This document shows positions 42,004 to 50,455 of a stretch of DNA of 64,000 nucleotides, piece after piece. Source of the stretch: Halarcobacter sp. (GTDB taxonomy: Bacteria > Campylobacterota > Campylobacteria > Campylobacterales > Arcobacteraceae). The stretch spans positions 1,646,680-1,710,679 of the forward strand of contig NZ_OY781470.1 of assembly GCF_963676935.1 (NCBI RefSeq). Reading direction: 5' to 3'. The position numbers and the translations under genes were made by a program. The notes below the pieces were generated by a model. That model was not told where the DNA came from, made no database searches, and saw nothing but the letters and a program-made list of their open reading frames with translations. Each line of letters starts with the position of its first letter. Positions within the stretch are counted from its first letter, which is position 1.

Positions 42004-44208
42004 ATGAATAAAATAATTTTATTAATATTTTTATCTGTATTATGTTTTGCTAATGAACCTTTTACTAAGTTAATAAAAAGTGAAGAAAATAAAATATTTG
42101 TAAAATTCAACACATCAATAATAAATAAAAATACTAGTAAAATAAATTTATTTGTAGATTCAAATACTGAGCTTACATTTATTATAACAAAATTTGAAAA
42201 AAGAATAAATGGATTTAAATTAGTTGCCAATAATAATAATAAAAATTCATTAATTTTAACTTCAAAAAATAATTTTATCTTTGGTAACATTATATACAAC
42301 AATAAAAAATACTCTATATTACCACATAAAGATTTATTTCAAATAGTAGAAAACAATGATTCAAAAGTTATAAAAAATGATACTAATGGTATAAGTAATC
42401 CTAATAAGCTTAAATCATTTTTAACTTCTCTACCAATAAAAAAAGATTTATTAAATAATAACTCAGAAGAACTAGTCACTATAGATTTATTAATACTATA
42501 TACTCAAGAAATGTTAAACTATTATGGAAATTCACTTCCAGCACTAATTCAGAATTTCGTTGATATAGGGAATGAGGTATTAGAAAACTCATTAGTAAAT
42601 GCAAAATTAAACTTAATAAAAACAGAATTATATGAAAATACACAAGCAAATGAAAATTATAATATAGATACAGCTTTAAATCAAATTACATACGATAAAA
42701 ATGTGAATGCTTTAAAAAGATTATATAACGCTGACATGATATCTTTAATGAGAAGATATGATGGATATAGTTCTACATGTGGACTAGGATATGTATTAGA
42801 CGAATTAAGTATTTTTAGTGCAATGTTTTCATACACTGTAGTAGAAGTTAAAAGTAGTAGTGAAAATGGTTATTATTGTAGTGATACAACACTAATTCAT
42901 GAGTTAGGCCATAATTTTGGTTGCGCACATGATAGAGATCATGCTTCTATACATGGTTTGTTTTCTTATTCTTATGGATATGACCAACCTCATGAATTTG
43001 CAACTATAATGAGTTATGATTCTCCAACAATAAATTATTTTTCAAATCCTAATATTTTATATAATGGAAACTATATTGGGATAGAAGAAGGTTTTTCAAA
43101 TTCTGCAGACTGTTCTAAAACGATTAGAAATTCTAAATCAATTATAAGTAATCATAATTTGTCAGAAGTATTAGAAGATGGTGATACTGCTATAAATAAT
43201 ATATTAAATGGTACTTTAAGTGATGAATATGATAGAGATTCTTTTTTATTTTTATTAAAAGGTACAATAAATTTTGATTTTAATTATTCTAATTACTATT
43301 TAAATATTTATGATGAAAATCAAATTTTAATTTATTCTAGCTATAGAGATTTTTCATTAGACTTAAATGAAGGTAAATATTATTTAGTTCTTTCTTCATT
43401 TTCAGATAGTAATGGCTATTTTTTTAGTGATAATGAATATAATTATACTATTTCTTTAACATCTAATGATCCTTCAAATATTTATTCTATTGTAGCTCAA
43501 CAAAAAGCTTTTATAGAACGATTCTACCAAAACATCCTAAATAGAAGCGCAGATACAGGAGGAATGAACACCTGGTTAGATGTAATCCAAAATCAAAGTG
43601 CCGCAAAAGTAGCCCTAGGATTTTTCCAATCACAAGAATTTATAAACCTAGGACTCTCAAATGAAGAATTCGTAGATATACTGTACCAAACACTTTTTGA
43701 TAGAGTAGCAGATAGTGGAGGAAGAGATATTTGGTTAAATCAATTAAATAATGGTACTAGTAGAATAGAAGTAATATACGGATTTCTAAATGCTCAAGAA
43801 TTTAAAAACCTAGCAGATAGTTTTGGAGTAACACAAATAAGAGATATAGATCAAATAACAGAAGTACCAGGATATGTAAATAGATTCTATAACTTAGTGT
43901 TAAATAGAAGCGCAGATGAAGTAGGATTTAATGATTGGGTAAGTCAATTAAGAGCAGGGACAAAAGCAGGAGGAGATATAGCAAAAGGGTTTTTTAATTC
44001 CCAAGAGTATATCCAAAGAGGATTAGATGATTCAACATTCTTAGATATATGCTATAGAGCATTTTTTAATAGAGAGGCAGATGCAGGAGGTAAAAATAGT
44101 TGGTTGTCACAAATAGCACAAGGTGCAACAACTGATGATATTTTAAATGGCTTTATTGGTTCTCAGGAGTTTATTCAACTTGCTGCTTCTTATGGAATTG
44201 AGCCTTAA
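42004..44208 (+). CDS. Secreted reprolysin-like metalloprotease with C-terminal DUF4214 module
   Basis: 734 residues. Signal peptide MNKIILLIFLSVLCFA. After a ~150-residue propeptide-like region comes the catalytic domain, with the zinc motif LIHELGHNFGCAHD (HExxHxxxxxH, residues ~299-309) and a Met-turn candidate in ATIMSYDS. Residues ~390-490 form a beta region similar to a pre-peptidase C-terminal domain. Residues ~497-734 carry four DUF4214 repeats (FIERFYQNILNRSADTGG, FVDILYQTLFDRVADSGG, YVNRFYNLVLNRSADEVG, FLDICYRAFFNREADAGG). The last part is visibly less AT-rich. Likely secreted, probably co-transcribed with the gene before it. Confidence 0.85.
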   Translation: MNKIILLIFLSVLCFANEPFTKLIKSEENKIFVKFNTSIINKNTSKINLFVDSNTELTFIITKFEKRINGFKLVANNNNKNSLILTSKNNFIFGNIIYNNKKYSILPHKDLFQIVENNDSKVIKNDTNGISNPNKLKSFLTSLPIKKDLLNNNSEELVTIDLLILYTQEMLNYYGNSLPALIQNFVDIGNEVLENSLVNAKLNLIKTELYENTQANENYNIDTALNQITYDKNVNALKRLYNADMISLMRRYDGYSSTCGLGYVLDELSIFSAMFSYTVVEVKSSSENGYYCSDTTLIHELGHNFGCAHDRDHASIHGLFSYSYGYDQPHEFATIMSYDSPTINYFSNPNILYNGNYIGIEEGFSNSADCSKTIRNSKSIISNHNLSEVLEDGDTAINNILNGTLSDEYDRDSFLFLLKGTINFDFNYSNYYLNIYDENQILIYSSYRDFSLDLNEGKYYLVLSSFSDSNGYFFSDNEYNYTISLTSNDPSNIYSIVAQQKAFIERFYQNILNRSADTGGMNTWLDVIQNQSAAKVALGFFQSQEFINLGLSNEEFVDILYQTLFDRVADSGGRDIWLNQLNNGTSRIEVIYGFLNAQEFKNLADSFGVTQIRDIDQITEVPGYVNRFYNLVLNRSADEVGFNDWVSQLRAGTKAGGDIAKGFFNSQEYIQRGLDDSTFLDICYRAFFNREADAGGKNSWLSQIAQGATTDDILNGFIGSQEFIQLAASYGIEP

Positions 44209-45114: not shown

Positions 45115-46464
45115 ATGTATAAAGTTATCTTATATTTATTATTAGTAAATACTTATCTATTTTCACAAAGTGTAAACTATAAAAAAGTGATTAATTTAAC
45201 ACTTGAGAATAATCTAAAATTAAAAGAACAAGAATTAAATATTAAAAAATCTACTTTAGATATTGAAAATGTAAAATCTTACTCTTATGGAAAATTAGAA
45301 TTAAAGCATGAAATGAGTAGAACCAACCATTCAGGATATGTATTTAATAATAAACTTTCTTCAAGAGAAGCTACTTTTAATGATTTTGGTGCATCTGAAT
45401 TTACAGGAATATCTGCTTTAAATGTTGAACCAAAGAACCTAAATTATCCAGAGGTAAGAAATAATTTTAATACAAAAATAACTTTTGAATTACCAATCTT
45501 TACAGGTTTTAAATTACAAAATCAAGAAGATATGATGAAAATTGCAAAAAAGGCTCAACAGTTAAAACTAAATCTTGATAAAAAATCATTAGAATTTGAA
45601 GTTCTAAAAGCTTATAATGCTGCTGTTGTTGCAAAAGAGTTTATAAAAGCTACAAAAAAAGCTAGAGAATCTGTTAAACTTTTTGTTACTTCTGCAAATG
45701 AATTTTATAAAGAGGGATTGGTAACTAAAATTGATACTAAACAAGCAAGAGTACATGAATTAAATGTTCAAAGTAAATTAACAGAAGCTCAAAATAAATT
45801 TAATATAGCCCTTGCTTATCTAAAGTTTTTAACTTCACAAGATAATATTACAGATGTAGAAAATTTAGAGATGATAAAAGCAAAAGAATTTAACTTTCAA
45901 TCACTTTACAAAGAAGCTGTAGAAAAAAGAGATGATTTAAAAATGTTAAAACAACAAGAAAAAAGTATGCAAAAAAATGTTGAAGTTTCTAACTCTTCTT
46001 ATTATCCAAATGTATATTCATATTTAGAATATGGGTTTAATGATGACAAAATAACATTCGATAATGAAAAAGACTACTATATGGGTATGTTAGGAATAAA
46101 ATTTACTCTTTTTGATAATACTAGGAATATTCAAAAACAAAAAAGTCAAATAATGTTAAATAAAACTGCATTAAATTTAAATCAATTAAAAGATGCAATT
46201 AAACTAGAAGTTGAAAAGACATTATTAAATCTTGAAGCAAAAAGAAAAGCTTTTAAAGAGAAACAAGAAGCTAAAGAACTTGCTTTTGAAGTTTTAGAAC
46301 AATCAAAACTGATGTATAAAAACCAGTTAATACCAATGACTGAACTTCTAAAACAAGAAGCAATCTACAGAGAAAATGAAGCATCATTAATTATGGCAAA
46401 TTATGAATTATCACTAGCACTTGCAAGAATAAATCTTGTTTCAGGTCAAAGTTTGAGAAAATAA
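45115..46464 (+). CDS. TolC-family outer-membrane efflux protein
   Basis: 449 residues. Signal peptide MYKVILYLLLVNTYLFSQS. Two TolC repeats, each with long coiled helices (NLTLENNLKLKEQELNIKKS, EVLKAYNAAVVAKEFIKATK, KLEVEKTLLNLEAKRKAFKE). It forms the outer-membrane channel for the adaptor and split RND pump encoded next. Confidence 0.9.
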   Translation: MYKVILYLLLVNTYLFSQSVNYKKVINLTLENNLKLKEQELNIKKSTLDIENVKSYSYGKLELKHEMSRTNHSGYVFNNKLSSREATFNDFGASEFTGISALNVEPKNLNYPEVRNNFNTKITFELPIFTGFKLQNQEDMMKIAKKAQQLKLNLDKKSLEFEVLKAYNAAVVAKEFIKATKKARESVKLFVTSANEFYKEGLVTKIDTKQARVHELNVQSKLTEAQNKFNIALAYLKFLTSQDNITDVENLEMIKAKEFNFQSLYKEAVEKRDDLKMLKQQEKSMQKNVEVSNSSYYPNVYSYLEYGFNDDKITFDNEKDYYMGMLGIKFTLFDNTRNIQKQKSQIMLNKTALNLNQLKDAIKLEVEKTLLNLEAKRKAFKEKQEAKELAFEVLEQSKLMYKNQLIPMTELLKQEAIYRENEASLIMANYELSLALARINLVSGQSLRK

Positions 46465-46474
46465 AGGAAAAGAT

Positions 46475-47242
46475 ATGAAGAAATCAATTTTATTTTTAGT
46501 TGTATTTTTATTAAATATGACAAACCTATTAGCAATAGAATTAAGTGGTACAGTAATCTCTGATAATGAAAAAATTATAACTAGTAGATATATGGGATTT
46601 ATAAAAAATGTATATGTAAATGAAGGAGACTTTGTAAAAAAAGGGGATTTACTTTATGAAATAGATTCTTCAAATATTGATAGTAAAAACCGCGAAGCTT
46701 TATTAAATCTTCAAATACAACAAAATAATTTGGATAATGTAAAAACAAACTATGAAAGATATAAAAGATTATATGAAAAAGATCTAATCCCTAAATATGA
46801 TTTAGAACAATTAGAGTTAAAACTAAAAAATATAAAAAATATGATTTCTATTGCTGAAGCAAAAGTAAAAGAGGTTAAATATCAATATAGATATTTAAAG
46901 ATAAGAGCACCAAATGCTGGACTTATAATAAAAAAGAGTATTAAAAGTGGAGAGATGGCAATGCCTAGTGCTCCGGCTATGATTCTTTCTGATTTAGATA
47001 GTTTAAAAATTAAAACTGATATAAATGAGAGTAATTTAGGAAAAATAAAAATAGGACAAGAGGTTGATGTTTTTATAGAATCTATAAACCTACAATCGAA
47101 AGGTAAAATTGCTTCAATAATTCCAAATATACAAAATATGACTCACTCTTTTACTATTAAAATCTCTTTTGATAAAAAAGGTAAACATATATATCCTGGA
47201 ATGTATAGTAAAATTAACTTAGTATTGGATAAAAATGAATAA
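46475..47242 (+). CDS. Periplasmic adaptor (HlyD/MFP family) of RND pump
   Basis: 255 residues, short for the family. Signal peptide MKKSILFLVVFLLNMTNLLA, lipoyl-like half motifs (GFIKNVYVNEGDFVKKGDLL, RAPNAGLIIKKSIKSGEMA), a short hairpin coiled coil (~70-115) and a beta-barrel domain. It links the inner-membrane pump to the TolC-like channel. Overlaps the next gene by 8 bases. Confidence 0.9.
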   Translation: MKKSILFLVVFLLNMTNLLAIELSGTVISDNEKIITSRYMGFIKNVYVNEGDFVKKGDLLYEIDSSNIDSKNREALLNLQIQQNNLDNVKTNYERYKRLYEKDLIPKYDLEQLELKLKNIKNMISIAEAKVKEVKYQYRYLKIRAPNAGLIIKKSIKSGEMAMPSAPAMILSDLDSLKIKTDINESNLGKIKIGQEVDVFIESINLQSKGKIASIIPNIQNMTHSFTIKISFDKKGKHIYPGMYSKINLVLDKNE

Positions 47243-48767
47243 TCAATTAAATATAGCAGGAAGACTTGCTAAAGTATTTATAGACCATCCTTTAACTTTG
47301 ATTTTAAGTATATTTATACTTTTATTGGGTTTTATTTCTTTAGAATTTATGCCAAGAGAAGAAAATCCACAAATAAAAGTAAGTGGTGGAGCTGTTATTG
47401 TGGCATTACCAGGAGCGAGACCAAGTGAAATAAAAAAAGTAATTATTGAACCCTTAGAAAAAAAGATTCGTGAAATAAAAGGTGTAGAACATATCTATTC
47501 ATATGCAAAAGATTCAATGGGTATTGTACAAGTACAATATTATATAGGAGAAGATAAAGAGGAATCAAATTTAAAACTTTATGACCAAGTTATGAGAAAT
47601 ATGGATAAAATGCCAAAAGGGGCTATGAATCCAATTATAAAAACAATGGATATAGATACTGATATACCAATTGCAACTATCGCATTTTTTGCAAAAGATA
47701 ATAATATTTCTCAAACTAAACTTTATAATGAAATAAGTAAAATCGCTTATGAAATAAATAAAATAGAAAAAGTAGCATTAGTAGATTTAAAAGGTGAGAA
47801 AAAAGAACAATACAATATTGAAGTAAATGCAAATAAAATTGCAGCATACAATTTATCTTTAGGGCAAATAGCAAATCAAATAAAAGCCTTATCACTAACT
47901 ACTCCAAATATCAACTCTGATAACAACAATAAAAATCTAACTGTATTAAGTATCAAAAATGCAATAGAATCAAAAGAAGATTTAGAAAATATAATAATTT
48001 CATATAATTATAATACCCCTATTCTTTTAAAAGATATAGCATCTATCTCAAGAAGTTATGATAAACAAAATAAAAAAGAAGCACTTCTTTATAAAAAAGA
48101 CACAAAAGAAACAGCAATTGAACAAGTTACATTAACAATATCAAAACTAAAAGGGGCAAACTCTGTAACTATAAATGAAAATATTTTTGAATATATCTCT
48201 TCAATAAAAAATCAACTTAATGAAAAAGGTATTAAATACGTTATTACCAGAGATGATGGTTATACAGCAAATAATGCAGTAAACTCTCTTGTGCAAAACC
48301 TTTTAATCTCAATACTTATTATTGCAATTTTACTTATCTTCTCTTTAGGTTTTAAAGAGGCTATGATAGTATCTTTATTAGTACCTATGATATTATCTTT
48401 GACTCTATTCATAGGTTTTTTGATGGAAGAGACTATTAATAGAATTACACTCTTTGCATTGATTGTAAGTTTAGGGATGCTAGTTGATGCTGCAATTATT
48501 GTAATTGAAAATATTGTAAGGCATAAAAAAGAGGATAAAGGAAAAACTGATATAAAAACTTTATCTATAAATGCAACAAATGAGATTGGAAATGCTACAA
48601 ATATAGCTACAATTGCTATTATAATGACATTTTTCCCAATGTTTTTTGTGGGAGGTATGATGGGACAATTTATGCACCCTCTTCCTATTTTTGTTCCTAT
48701 AGCCCTAGTTGTTTCTCTTGTAGTAGCATATATATTTACTCCATATTTAGTTAAAAAAATTTTATAA
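47235..48767 (+). CDS. RND efflux pump, N-terminal half protein
   Basis: 510 residues. It holds TM1 (LTLILSIFILLLGFISL), the first porter loop and TM2-TM6, and ends right after TM6 with TPYLVKKIL. The TM4 motif reads LGMLVDAAIIVIENI, where AcrB has two Asp (VDDAI); the second is Ala here. A full RND pump has ~1030 residues; this is one half. The other half starts 9 bases later with its own ribosome site. Confidence 0.88.
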   Translation: MNNQLNIAGRLAKVFIDHPLTLILSIFILLLGFISLEFMPREENPQIKVSGGAVIVALPGARPSEIKKVIIEPLEKKIREIKGVEHIYSYAKDSMGIVQVQYYIGEDKEESNLKLYDQVMRNMDKMPKGAMNPIIKTMDIDTDIPIATIAFFAKDNNISQTKLYNEISKIAYEINKIEKVALVDLKGEKKEQYNIEVNANKIAAYNLSLGQIANQIKALSLTTPNINSDNNNKNLTVLSIKNAIESKEDLENIIISYNYNTPILLKDIASISRSYDKQNKKEALLYKKDTKETAIEQVTLTISKLKGANSVTINENIFEYISSIKNQLNEKGIKYVITRDDGYTANNAVNSLVQNLLISILIIAILLIFSLGFKEAMIVSLLVPMILSLTLFIGFLMEETINRITLFALIVSLGMLVDAAIIVIENIVRHKKEDKGKTDIKTLSINATNEIGNATNIATIAIIMTFFPMFFVGGMMGQFMHPLPIFVPIALVVSLVVAYIFTPYLVKKIL

Positions 48768-48776
48768 GGCTTGAAA

Positions 48777-50426
48777 ATGAAACTAGAAAAATTTATTTAT
48801 GAAATACTTCAAAGCCCTAAAAAAACTTTAATGGTATATCTAATTACCTTAGTATTATTTATGTTGAGTATTGCAACCTTTCCTACTGAAATAGTAAAAG
48901 CAAAAATGTTACCTAGTAAGGACTCTAATACTTTTTCTGTATATGTTGATTTAAAAGATGGTTCATCAGTAAGTGAAACAAAAGAGGTTACAACATGTAT
49001 TTCAAAAAAACTTATATCGAAAGATTTAGTAACTGATGTTTCTGTATTCGTTGGAGAAGGGCAACCTCTTGATTTTGCTGCTTTGGTTAAACAAAGTGCA
49101 TTAAAAGATAAACAATCTCAAGCTGAAATAATGGTAAATATCAAAAAAGATAGAGATATGACAAGCTATAACTTTGTAAGTTCAATAAGAGAAGAACTTC
49201 AAAGTTGTTCAAAATATGATGCAAATATAAAATTAATAGAATTACCAGCGGGACCTCCCGTACTTGCTTCAATTGTTGCTGAAATATATGGTGGGAACTC
49301 TTTTGAAAGTAGAAAAAAACTTGCTATTGAAGTAGCAAAAGTACTTAAAAATCAAAAAACTCTTGTAGATGTGGATATTATGGCTGATGATATATATGAC
49401 AAATATGAGATTATTTTAGACAATAATAAAATTATAAAAAGTGGTTTATCATTAGAACAAGTAAAAAATATAATCTATATAGCATATGAGGGAGTTGTAC
49501 TATCAGTTGTAAATGAAAAAGACTCACAAAGTCAAATACCAATATTTTTAAGACTTGATAATCAAAGATTATTTGACTCAAATAAAAAAGAGGATATTTT
49601 AAATAAACTATCAACTCTAAAACTTGTAAATAAAAATGGATTTAATATTCCATTAACTGAATTAATAGAAGTTAGAAAAACTATAAAGGAACCAACTCTA
49701 ACATCAAAAGATTTAAATCCTATGATAAATGTTATTGCTGAAACTGATAAAGATAGTCAAATATATCCCTTGTTAGATGCAAGAGATGAGTTTTTAAACA
49801 ATTTCAATACTAACTATGAAGTAAGTCGTTCAAACCTATTAAATCTTGAATTTAAAGATAAAAATACAAATGAAACATTTAAACTTATTTGGGATGGAGA
49901 GTTAAAAGTTACAATTGACACATTTATTGATTTAGGTGGAGCTTTTATAATTGCTTTAGTATTAATTTTCTTCCTAATGGTTGTTTACTATAAAAACTTT
50001 GCTGTTTCAGGAGGAATTGTATTAGCTAGTTTTATTTCTATTATAGGAGTTATATTTGCTCATATAATCATGGACTTAATAACTACCGATACTTTTTATC
50101 TAACAGCAACATCTTTAATAGGATTTATTGGTTTAATTGGTATAAACTCAAGAAATTCTACTTTAATTATTGATTTTACTAAACAATTAGTTGAGGAAAA
50201 AGGATTATCAATAAATGAGGCTATAGCAAAAGCAACTGCAACAAGATCAAAACCAATTATACTTACTGTACTTACAATGGTTTTTGCTTCTTCACTCTTA
50301 GCTACAGATGCAGTATTTGGAGGATTAGGTGTTGCACTAATTGGTGGAACATTAATCTCCTATATAGTATCTATGTTTTTTGTTCCCGTTATTATAAAAA
50401 ATCAAATAAAATATATTTTAAAATAA
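48777..50426 (+). CDS. RND efflux pump, C-terminal half protein
   Basis: 549 residues from ATG 48777, which has TAAGG 8 bases upstream; TTG 48771 is too close to that site. It holds TM7 (TLMVYLITLVLFMLSIATF), the second porter loop and TM8-TM12. The TM10 segment is GLIGINSRNSTLIIDF, where AcrB has its relay Lys; here the aligned residue is Arg. The break between halves is exactly at the internal repeat boundary. Confidence 0.88.
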   Translation: MKLEKFIYEILQSPKKTLMVYLITLVLFMLSIATFPTEIVKAKMLPSKDSNTFSVYVDLKDGSSVSETKEVTTCISKKLISKDLVTDVSVFVGEGQPLDFAALVKQSALKDKQSQAEIMVNIKKDRDMTSYNFVSSIREELQSCSKYDANIKLIELPAGPPVLASIVAEIYGGNSFESRKKLAIEVAKVLKNQKTLVDVDIMADDIYDKYEIILDNNKIIKSGLSLEQVKNIIYIAYEGVVLSVVNEKDSQSQIPIFLRLDNQRLFDSNKKEDILNKLSTLKLVNKNGFNIPLTELIEVRKTIKEPTLTSKDLNPMINVIAETDKDSQIYPLLDARDEFLNNFNTNYEVSRSNLLNLEFKDKNTNETFKLIWDGELKVTIDTFIDLGGAFIIALVLIFFLMVVYYKNFAVSGGIVLASFISIIGVIFAHIIMDLITTDTFYLTATSLIGFIGLIGINSRNSTLIIDFTKQLVEEKGLSINEAIAKATATRSKPIILTVLTMVFASSLLATDAVFGGLGVALIGGTLISYIVSMFFVPVIIKNQIKYILK

Positions 50427-50429
50427 AAA

Positions 50430-50455
50430 AAGGTTACCTTTTAAAAGGTAACCTT
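50430..50455 (-). terminator. Intrinsic terminator of the acetyltransferase operon
   Basis: AAGGTTACC-TTTTAAAA-GGTAACCTT is a perfect palindromic hairpin. On the minus strand it is followed by TTTTTTATTTT, a good U-tract, so it ends the transcript coming from 50454 upward. On the plus strand the U-tract is weak, but it may still help to stop the RND operon. Confidence 0.85.

Follow-up and report, generated by a model that had tools for sequence, protein, structure and literature searches.

A two-gene RND permease and a shortened adaptor in a predicted tripartite efflux pump of Halarcobacter sp. and other Campylobacterota

Gene organization of the locus

We analyzed a stretch of 64,000 nucleotides from Halarcobacter sp. 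(NCBI RefSeq assembly GCF_963676935.1, contig NZ_OY781470.1, positions 1,646,680 to 1,710,679 of the forward strand), which is referred to as the window and whose first letter is position 1 of all coordinates given here. It contains an operon for a putative tripartite efflux pump of the resistance-nodulation-division (RND) superfamily, in which the permease is encoded by two half-size genes for its N-terminal (N-half) and C-terminal (C-half) part. The genes are arranged in the order TolC-type channel, adaptor, N-half and C-half, all on the plus strand. Transmembrane helices are abbreviated as TM and amino acids as aa in the following list.

47235-50426, plus strand: two-gene permease of the RND pump, the region named in a first-pass annotation of the window
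45115-46464, plus strand: TolC-type outer-membrane channel gene, 449 aa (Pfam OEP, E 1.7e-45; the operon is the same in relatives)
46475-47242, plus strand: periplasmic adaptor gene, 255 aa, without C-terminal membrane-proximal domain (TIGR01730; alignment to the adaptors of fused relatives)
47235-48767, plus strand: RND permease N-half, 510 aa, with TM1, the PN/DN periplasmic part and TM2-TM6
48486-48488, plus strand: codon of D418 (TM4, aligned to AcrB D407), followed by an Ala codon (AcrB D408)
48765-48769, plus strand: N-half stop codon TAA continuing into TAAGG, the likely ribosome-binding site of the C-half as judged from the sequence
48777-50426, plus strand: C-half of the RND permease, 549 aa if begun at the likely ATG, with TM7, the PC/DC periplasmic part and TM8-TM12
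48996-48998 and 49206-49208, plus strand: codons of C74 and C144 of the C-half
50151-50153, plus strand: codon of R459 of the C-half (TM10, aligned to AcrB K940)
50250-50252, plus strand: codon of K492 of the C-half (TM11, aligned to AcrB R971)

The start of the N-half gene overlaps the end of the adaptor gene by 8 nt, and the gene following the C-half lies on the opposite strand with its start at 50454. The open reading frame of the C-half was listed from 48771 to 50426, with 551 aa counted from a TTG. The ribosome site which the first-pass annotation had placed before the second start is present as TAAGG, but the start itself is more probably the ATG at 48777, because TAAGG lies 7 nt ahead of this ATG and only 1 nt ahead of the TTG, and because MKLEKF is a conserved start among relatives.

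In a profile search against Pfam ACR_tran (1021 positions), the N-half matched positions 2-487 with 267.4 bits and the C-half positions 518-1016 with 138.8 bits (cut-off 28), which places both in the RND superfamily. Since they cover consecutive segments of the profile, the two reading frames are successive halves of one RND permease, each gene corresponding to one repeat of AcrB and ACR_tran; this agrees with the earlier statement that the halves meet at the internal repeat boundary. In the window both genes are in the same reading frame with a single TAA in between, so that the window by itself could not separate a two-gene form from a nonsense mutation or from readthrough.

Distribution of the two-gene form

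The same split is present across the genus and in many other Campylobacterota. A match to the N-half was found in 60 of 60 relatives, and each of the 16 genomes from the genus, that of the window among them, has half-size frames. The first-pass annotation had named close relatives with one fused gene, together with loss of function in this strain, as the finding that would speak against its reading, and the genus does not show this. For the wider survey we used 397 Campylobacterota genomes with a completeness of at least 90%. A match to the N-half at E ≤ 1e-60 was obtained in 163 of them, belonging to 42 of 68 genera, and the same 163 genomes match the C-half; the agreement of the two genome lists was established by reading. 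All 150 match rows listed for the N-half (144 genomes) contain frames of 509-565 aa. With a fused sister as query, 11 of the 397 genomes gave full-length frames, which measured at least 1077 aa.

Both halves were recovered in the same stretch for 78 of the 80 best loci of a named collection, and all 78 are split; the remaining two stretches gave no C-half. The scan of genome contigs covered the best 80 of 581 confirmed relatives. These all read as Campylobacterota or as unclassified, so that splits may also exist in other phyla. The search outside the phylum was made on plasmids and gave 4875 matching records, 602 of them with a coverage of at least 80%. Among ten inspected matches of the 30 listed, the two from Campylobacterota are both split and the eight others are all fused. 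Both halves are also found on annotated plasmids from Sulfurovum mangrovi and Sulfuricurvum kujiense, where each is named "efflux RND transporter permease subunit".

The junction between the genes varies among the 78 loci. The C-half starts 1 nt inside the N-half in 25 loci, 4 nt inside in 18 and directly after it in 8, the remainder ranging from a gap of +9 to long overlaps. Relative to the N-half, the C-half is in frame 2 in 58 loci, in frame 0 in 11 and in frame 1 in 9. This variable frame and the overlaps point to translational coupling and fit poorly with a conserved readthrough or frameshift. Together with the shared split in relatives, the low substitution ratios and the trees described below, the junctions strongly support a true two-gene form rather than a frameshift, as had been claimed from the window.

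Origin and selection

Phylogenetic trees of 74 rows each were calculated for the N-half and the C-half with a quick IQ-TREE run and SH-aLRT support only; CusA and L082 form long branches, and L070 was dropped as partial. The fused relatives in these trees come from Campylobacterota (6) and from plasmids that belong to other phyla or classes (8). In both trees all 36 split rows form one clade (SH-aLRT 100), which is nested inside the fused relatives. The simplest account of this topology is a single old fission, so that the permease gene would have been split once, long ago, in the Campylobacterota. Over the 36 rows, the distances of the N-half and the C-half show a correlation of r 0.969. Two genomes contain two copies, and there the second N-half shares its nearest partners with its own C-half.

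The ratios of nonsynonymous to synonymous substitutions (dN/dS, NG86) between the window and five relatives of the same genus are 0.03-0.12 for the N-half and 0.04-0.15 for the C-half. In every one of the five comparisons both values are below that of the TolC gene. These ratios indicate that both halves are under purifying selection.

Predicted fold of the halves

AlphaFold2 single-chain models were calculated from 42-row alignments; the alignments A3 and A4 consist of the window and a hand-picked, diverse set of 41 from the 71 complete pairs. The model of the N-half reached a mean pLDDT of 79.3 and a pTM of 0.63, that of the C-half 78.6 and 0.58. The N-half model was superposed on AcrB 1-497 (2j8s_A) with Z 24.7 and a root mean square deviation (rmsd) of 6.8 over 462 aligned residues, and the C-half model on AcrB 525-1035 (6zof_C) with Z 22.6 and an rmsd of 5.1 over 489 aligned residues. 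Full-length periplasmic parts are present in both halves and match AcrB end to end. The sole unmatched part is AcrB 498-524, about 27 residues in the cytoplasm that connect TM6 with TM7; the fission thus takes away the covalent connection together with most of the loop bearing the amphipathic helix.

A hairpin with W-x-G-E precedes TM8 in the C-half and is shared with the fused relatives (M for W in one); in the alignment it was not found in AcrB, CusA, MdtB or MdtC. The periplasmic part of the C-half also contains the Cys pair C74 and C144, which 27 of the 29 rows in alignment A2 retain and which L059 and L062 have lost as a pair. A disulfide between these two residues is possible, judging from this conservation.

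Proton relay residues

In the alignment, the relay residues D407-D408, K940 and R971 of AcrB correspond to D418-A419, R459 and K492. D418 does not vary in any of the 29 rows of alignment A1, nor does R459 in any of the 29 rows of A2. Among the 36 split rows, 28 show Asp-Ala/Arg/Lys in TM4, TM10 and TM11, 6 Asp-Asp/Arg/Lys, and one each Asp-Ser/Arg/Lys and Asp-Ala/Arg/Arg. In the 14 fused relatives TM10 always carries Arg, TM11 carries Arg (9), Lys (2), Thr (2) or Met (1), and TM4 has Asp-Asp in 9.

The altered relay reported in the first-pass annotation, Asp-Ala in TM4 and Arg in TM10, is thus present but not special to the split. Arg in TM10 was found in all 50 subfamily members examined, 14 of them fused, and in none of 20 paralogues, one of which is incomplete at this position. 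As the fused relatives and also MexK and TriC carry this Arg, it predates the split and is not exotic, and an origin of the residue as a result of the split was rejected. A single Asp in TM4 occurs in many full-length paralogues as well, and CusA combines Asp-Ala in TM4 with Glu in TM10. Lys instead of Arg in TM11, which the first-pass annotation did not mention, is found in 35 of 36 split rows and appears to be a change nearly fixed along with the split. The N chain supplies the acidic residues of the relay (Asp418 and Glu425, TM4), the C chain its basic residues (Arg459 in TM10, Lys492 in TM11); the relay would therefore be complete in the assembled pair only.

The shortened adaptor

The adaptor of the window matches TIGR01730 with 129.5 bits (cut-off 94.9), as expected for an RND adaptor, but the match ends at position 248 of 322. 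In all five split-pump adaptors compared the match ends at 244-248 of 322, whereas it reaches 307-320 in six of six adaptors of fused relatives. In the adaptor alignment, 30 split rows extend 0-5 residues past the end of the window adaptor and the nine fused relatives printed 60-79 residues; one split row (L042, 108 aa) is cut by the contig end. An adaptor gene is located directly upstream of the N-half in 88 of 112 loci, and the 86 uncut ones all encode 236-273 aa.

By alignment, the missing portion is the C-terminal membrane-proximal domain, which is retained by the adaptors of the fused relatives. Permease fission and loss of this domain would, as far as sampled, fall on the same branch. 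A search of the window with two tails gave no separate gene for the missing domain (best E 0.17). According to one source, the domain is common to RND and ABC adaptors, and the EmrA-type adaptors of MFS pumps have none (PMC13328181). EmrA-type adaptors serve permeases without large periplasmic parts, which the split permease does have. The shortened adaptors at 46475-47242 and in L031-L174 run contrary to the rule for RND adaptors.

Comparison with known systems

With AcrB, MexB and CmeB (HAE-1) the split pump has in common the fold of both halves, the Asp and Glu of TM4 and the TolC and adaptor partners. It differs by about 20% identity, the absent linker 498-524 and the distribution over two chains with one repeat each, while an HAE-1 permease unites both six-TM repeats and both periplasmic loops in a single chain. 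Asp-Ala, Arg and Lys stand in place of their Asp-Asp in TM4, Lys in TM10 and Arg in TM11. The best scores with the NCBIfam permease models (NF033617, NF000282, TIGR00915, TIGR00914) were 248.7 of 1250 for the N-half and 94.2 of 1250 for the C-half, against cut-offs which are set for full-length proteins and which halves could hardly reach.

SecD and SecF form an RND-superfamily machine which in many bacteria naturally consists of two six-TM chains, but they belong to another family with another job. The SecDF model gave 19.2 bits for the N-half (cut-off 723) and no listed match for the C-half. The best PDB profile matches of the C-half are MexK and TriC of P. aeruginosa (9xwg, 20yy and 6vej, the last of which we take to be TriC). 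These share the Arg in TM10 but are single chains of 1022-1031 aa. For MdtBC and MuxBC, two permease genes in one operon are described as needed for one pump (PMC7015380). In these systems both proteins are full-length homologues which form a B2C trimer, whereas here each gene spans half of the ACR_tran profile and encodes half a protomer.

Close systems, too, are the fused relatives from Campylobacterota (L063-L068) and from plasmids of Roseibium, Polaromonas, Sphingopyxis, Pseudanabaena, Flammeovirga, Paracoccus, Agrobacterium and Vibrio. They belong to the same subfamily by the Arg in TM10, the W-x-G-E hairpin before TM8 and the trees, but have one chain of 1057-1202 aa (stop to stop) and an adaptor with the membrane-proximal domain. 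A natural split of an HAE-type RND permease was not found described in the open-access literature searched.

Alternative explanations

It is hardly conceivable that the two frames are a single gene broken by a nonsense mutation, a frameshift or a sequencing error in this strain. The shared frame with one TAA in the window would fit this explanation, but all 150 listed rows and all 78 loci share the position of the break, dN/dS is low (0.03-0.15), and the C-half has its own start and ribosome site; a sequencing error or a local pseudogene is ruled out by the relatives. Very unlikely, too, is a joining of the halves in translation by stop readthrough or programmed frameshifting, by which a fused permease would also be made. 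In 17 rows, including the window, the frame is shared across only one or two in-frame stops, and ribosomes could slip at the stop/start overlaps of 1 or 4 nt in 43 of 78 loci. However, the frame relation is not conserved, the in-frame stops include TAA and TAG, the spacing between the genes varies widely, and overlapping stop and start codons are usual in translational coupling. Fusion as a rule was rejected on account of the varying frame and stop codon, with occasional readthrough possible in the 17 same-frame rows.

The first-pass annotation had also suggested a different oligomeric plan. We consider it improbable that each half forms homo-oligomers, that the halves are exchangeable or that the stoichiometry departs from 3:3. 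The fission does remove the covalent link with most of the 498-524 loop, and an adaptor without the domain that touches the permease in other RND pumps means that the assembly interface must partly differ. On the other side, the relay is conserved with its acids on one chain and its bases on the other, N-half and C-half always occur together, and their periplasmic parts are full-length; the suggestion found no support and is not needed, since the two chains tile AcrB except for the linker. A heavy-metal pump (HME) of the CusA/CzcA type would be consistent with the Asp-Ala of CusA in TM4, with the match of the adaptor to TIGR00999 (CzcB/NccB; 126.7 bits, below the cut-off of 319.3) and with the at least four His in the N-half tail of 25 of 107 rows. 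This assignment is unlikely as well, because the permease reaches 129 bits for TIGR00914 (cut-off 701) and scores higher with HAE-type models, both trees place CusA outside the subfamily, albeit with a long branch, the TM10 of CusA carries Glu and not Arg, and the N-half tail of the window has no His.

Proposed assembly of the pump

Most probably, the operon encodes a split-permease tripartite efflux pump whose N and C halves reassemble as an AcrB-like (NC)3. The product would belong to an RND subfamily without a name. The conserved split of the permease and the shortening of the adaptor are evident from the sequence, and a two-chain protomer and proton-driven export through TolC are predicted from it. 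The two halves would be made 1:1 from the overlapping or nearly touching genes, meet in the inner membrane and form one AcrB-like pseudo-protomer, three N-C pairs giving the usual trimer. Protons would be transferred across the subunit boundary between Asp418 and Glu425 of the N chain and Arg459 and Lys492 of the C chain. The trimer would work with the TolC channel and an adaptor binding without its C-terminal membrane-proximal domain. Such a reassembly is plausible, as activity was reported to be reconstituted when the halves of Disp1 and Ptch1, two members of the RND family, were expressed as separate chains (PMC8630017). Small amphiphilic or toxic compounds are the likeliest substrate class, given that the permease falls outside the CusA/CzcA metal type. 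Disruption has been described for three RND pumps of A. butzleri (areB, areE and areG; PMC8300790); the split pump may or may not be among them.

Several observations weigh against a reassembled (NC)3 pump descended from the fused form. The confidence of the models is only moderate and their rmsd to AcrB is high (5-7 Å); they also represent each half alone. No adaptor gene lies directly upstream of the N-half in 24 of 112 loci. An adaptor of 260-280 aa is located elsewhere in the stretch in 11 of these and none in the stretch in 13, so that some pumps must rely on an adaptor encoded at a distance or work without any. Split and fused forms also occur together in one genome (L057 and L065 in G059, L058 and L068 in G040); the fused sister may therefore be an old paralogue and not the direct state of the ancestor.

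A rather doubtful further reading is a pump remodelled on one branch, in which the permease was cut and the adaptor lost its membrane-proximal domain. In that case the adaptor would dock differently, perhaps at the N-C seam, and the freed halves would permit assemblies or regulation closed to a single-chain permease.

Tails of the N-half and neighboring genes

The C-terminal tails of the N-half, which are freed by the split, contain His runs in some loci, for example L050, L053, L109 and L110, with stretches such as six consecutive His. A Cys pair similar to NPYGICExC was observed in the tails of L120, L165 and L172. It is possible that these His-rich or Cys-bearing tails bind metal.

In 115 split-pump loci the recurrent neighbors are housekeeping genes, namely serA-like (34), efp-like (31), S1-like (21) and DJ-1-like (20) genes; the names were assigned by reading the sequences and agree with the Sulfurovum record. 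Four fused pumps outside the Campylobacterota (L179, L181, L182 and L183) adjoin genes for DUF2892 proteins, rhodanese or sulfurtransferase and FAD/NAD(P) oxidoreductases. A link of this fused branch to sulfide stress is possible, but it is not carried into the split pumps with their housekeeping neighbors. Apart from the pump, the window encodes at 42004-44208 a protein of 734 aa in which a reprolysin-like metalloprotease domain occurs along with four DUF4214 stretches.

Significance

The two-gene form is far more general than the view of a single window could show, and the shortened adaptor is an unexpected addition to the split permease. To our knowledge, RND permeases are treated as obligate single-chain proteins with two repeats, and their adaptors as needing the membrane-proximal domain. 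Both rules are broken together, stably and in many genera. As both halves are annotated as permease subunits, counts of pumps per genome may be inflated. The separate genes let either half be tagged, removed or mutated independently. The split pump is thereby a natural test of whether the proton-driven cycle depends on a covalent connection of the repeats, and of what the membrane-proximal domain of the adaptor does.

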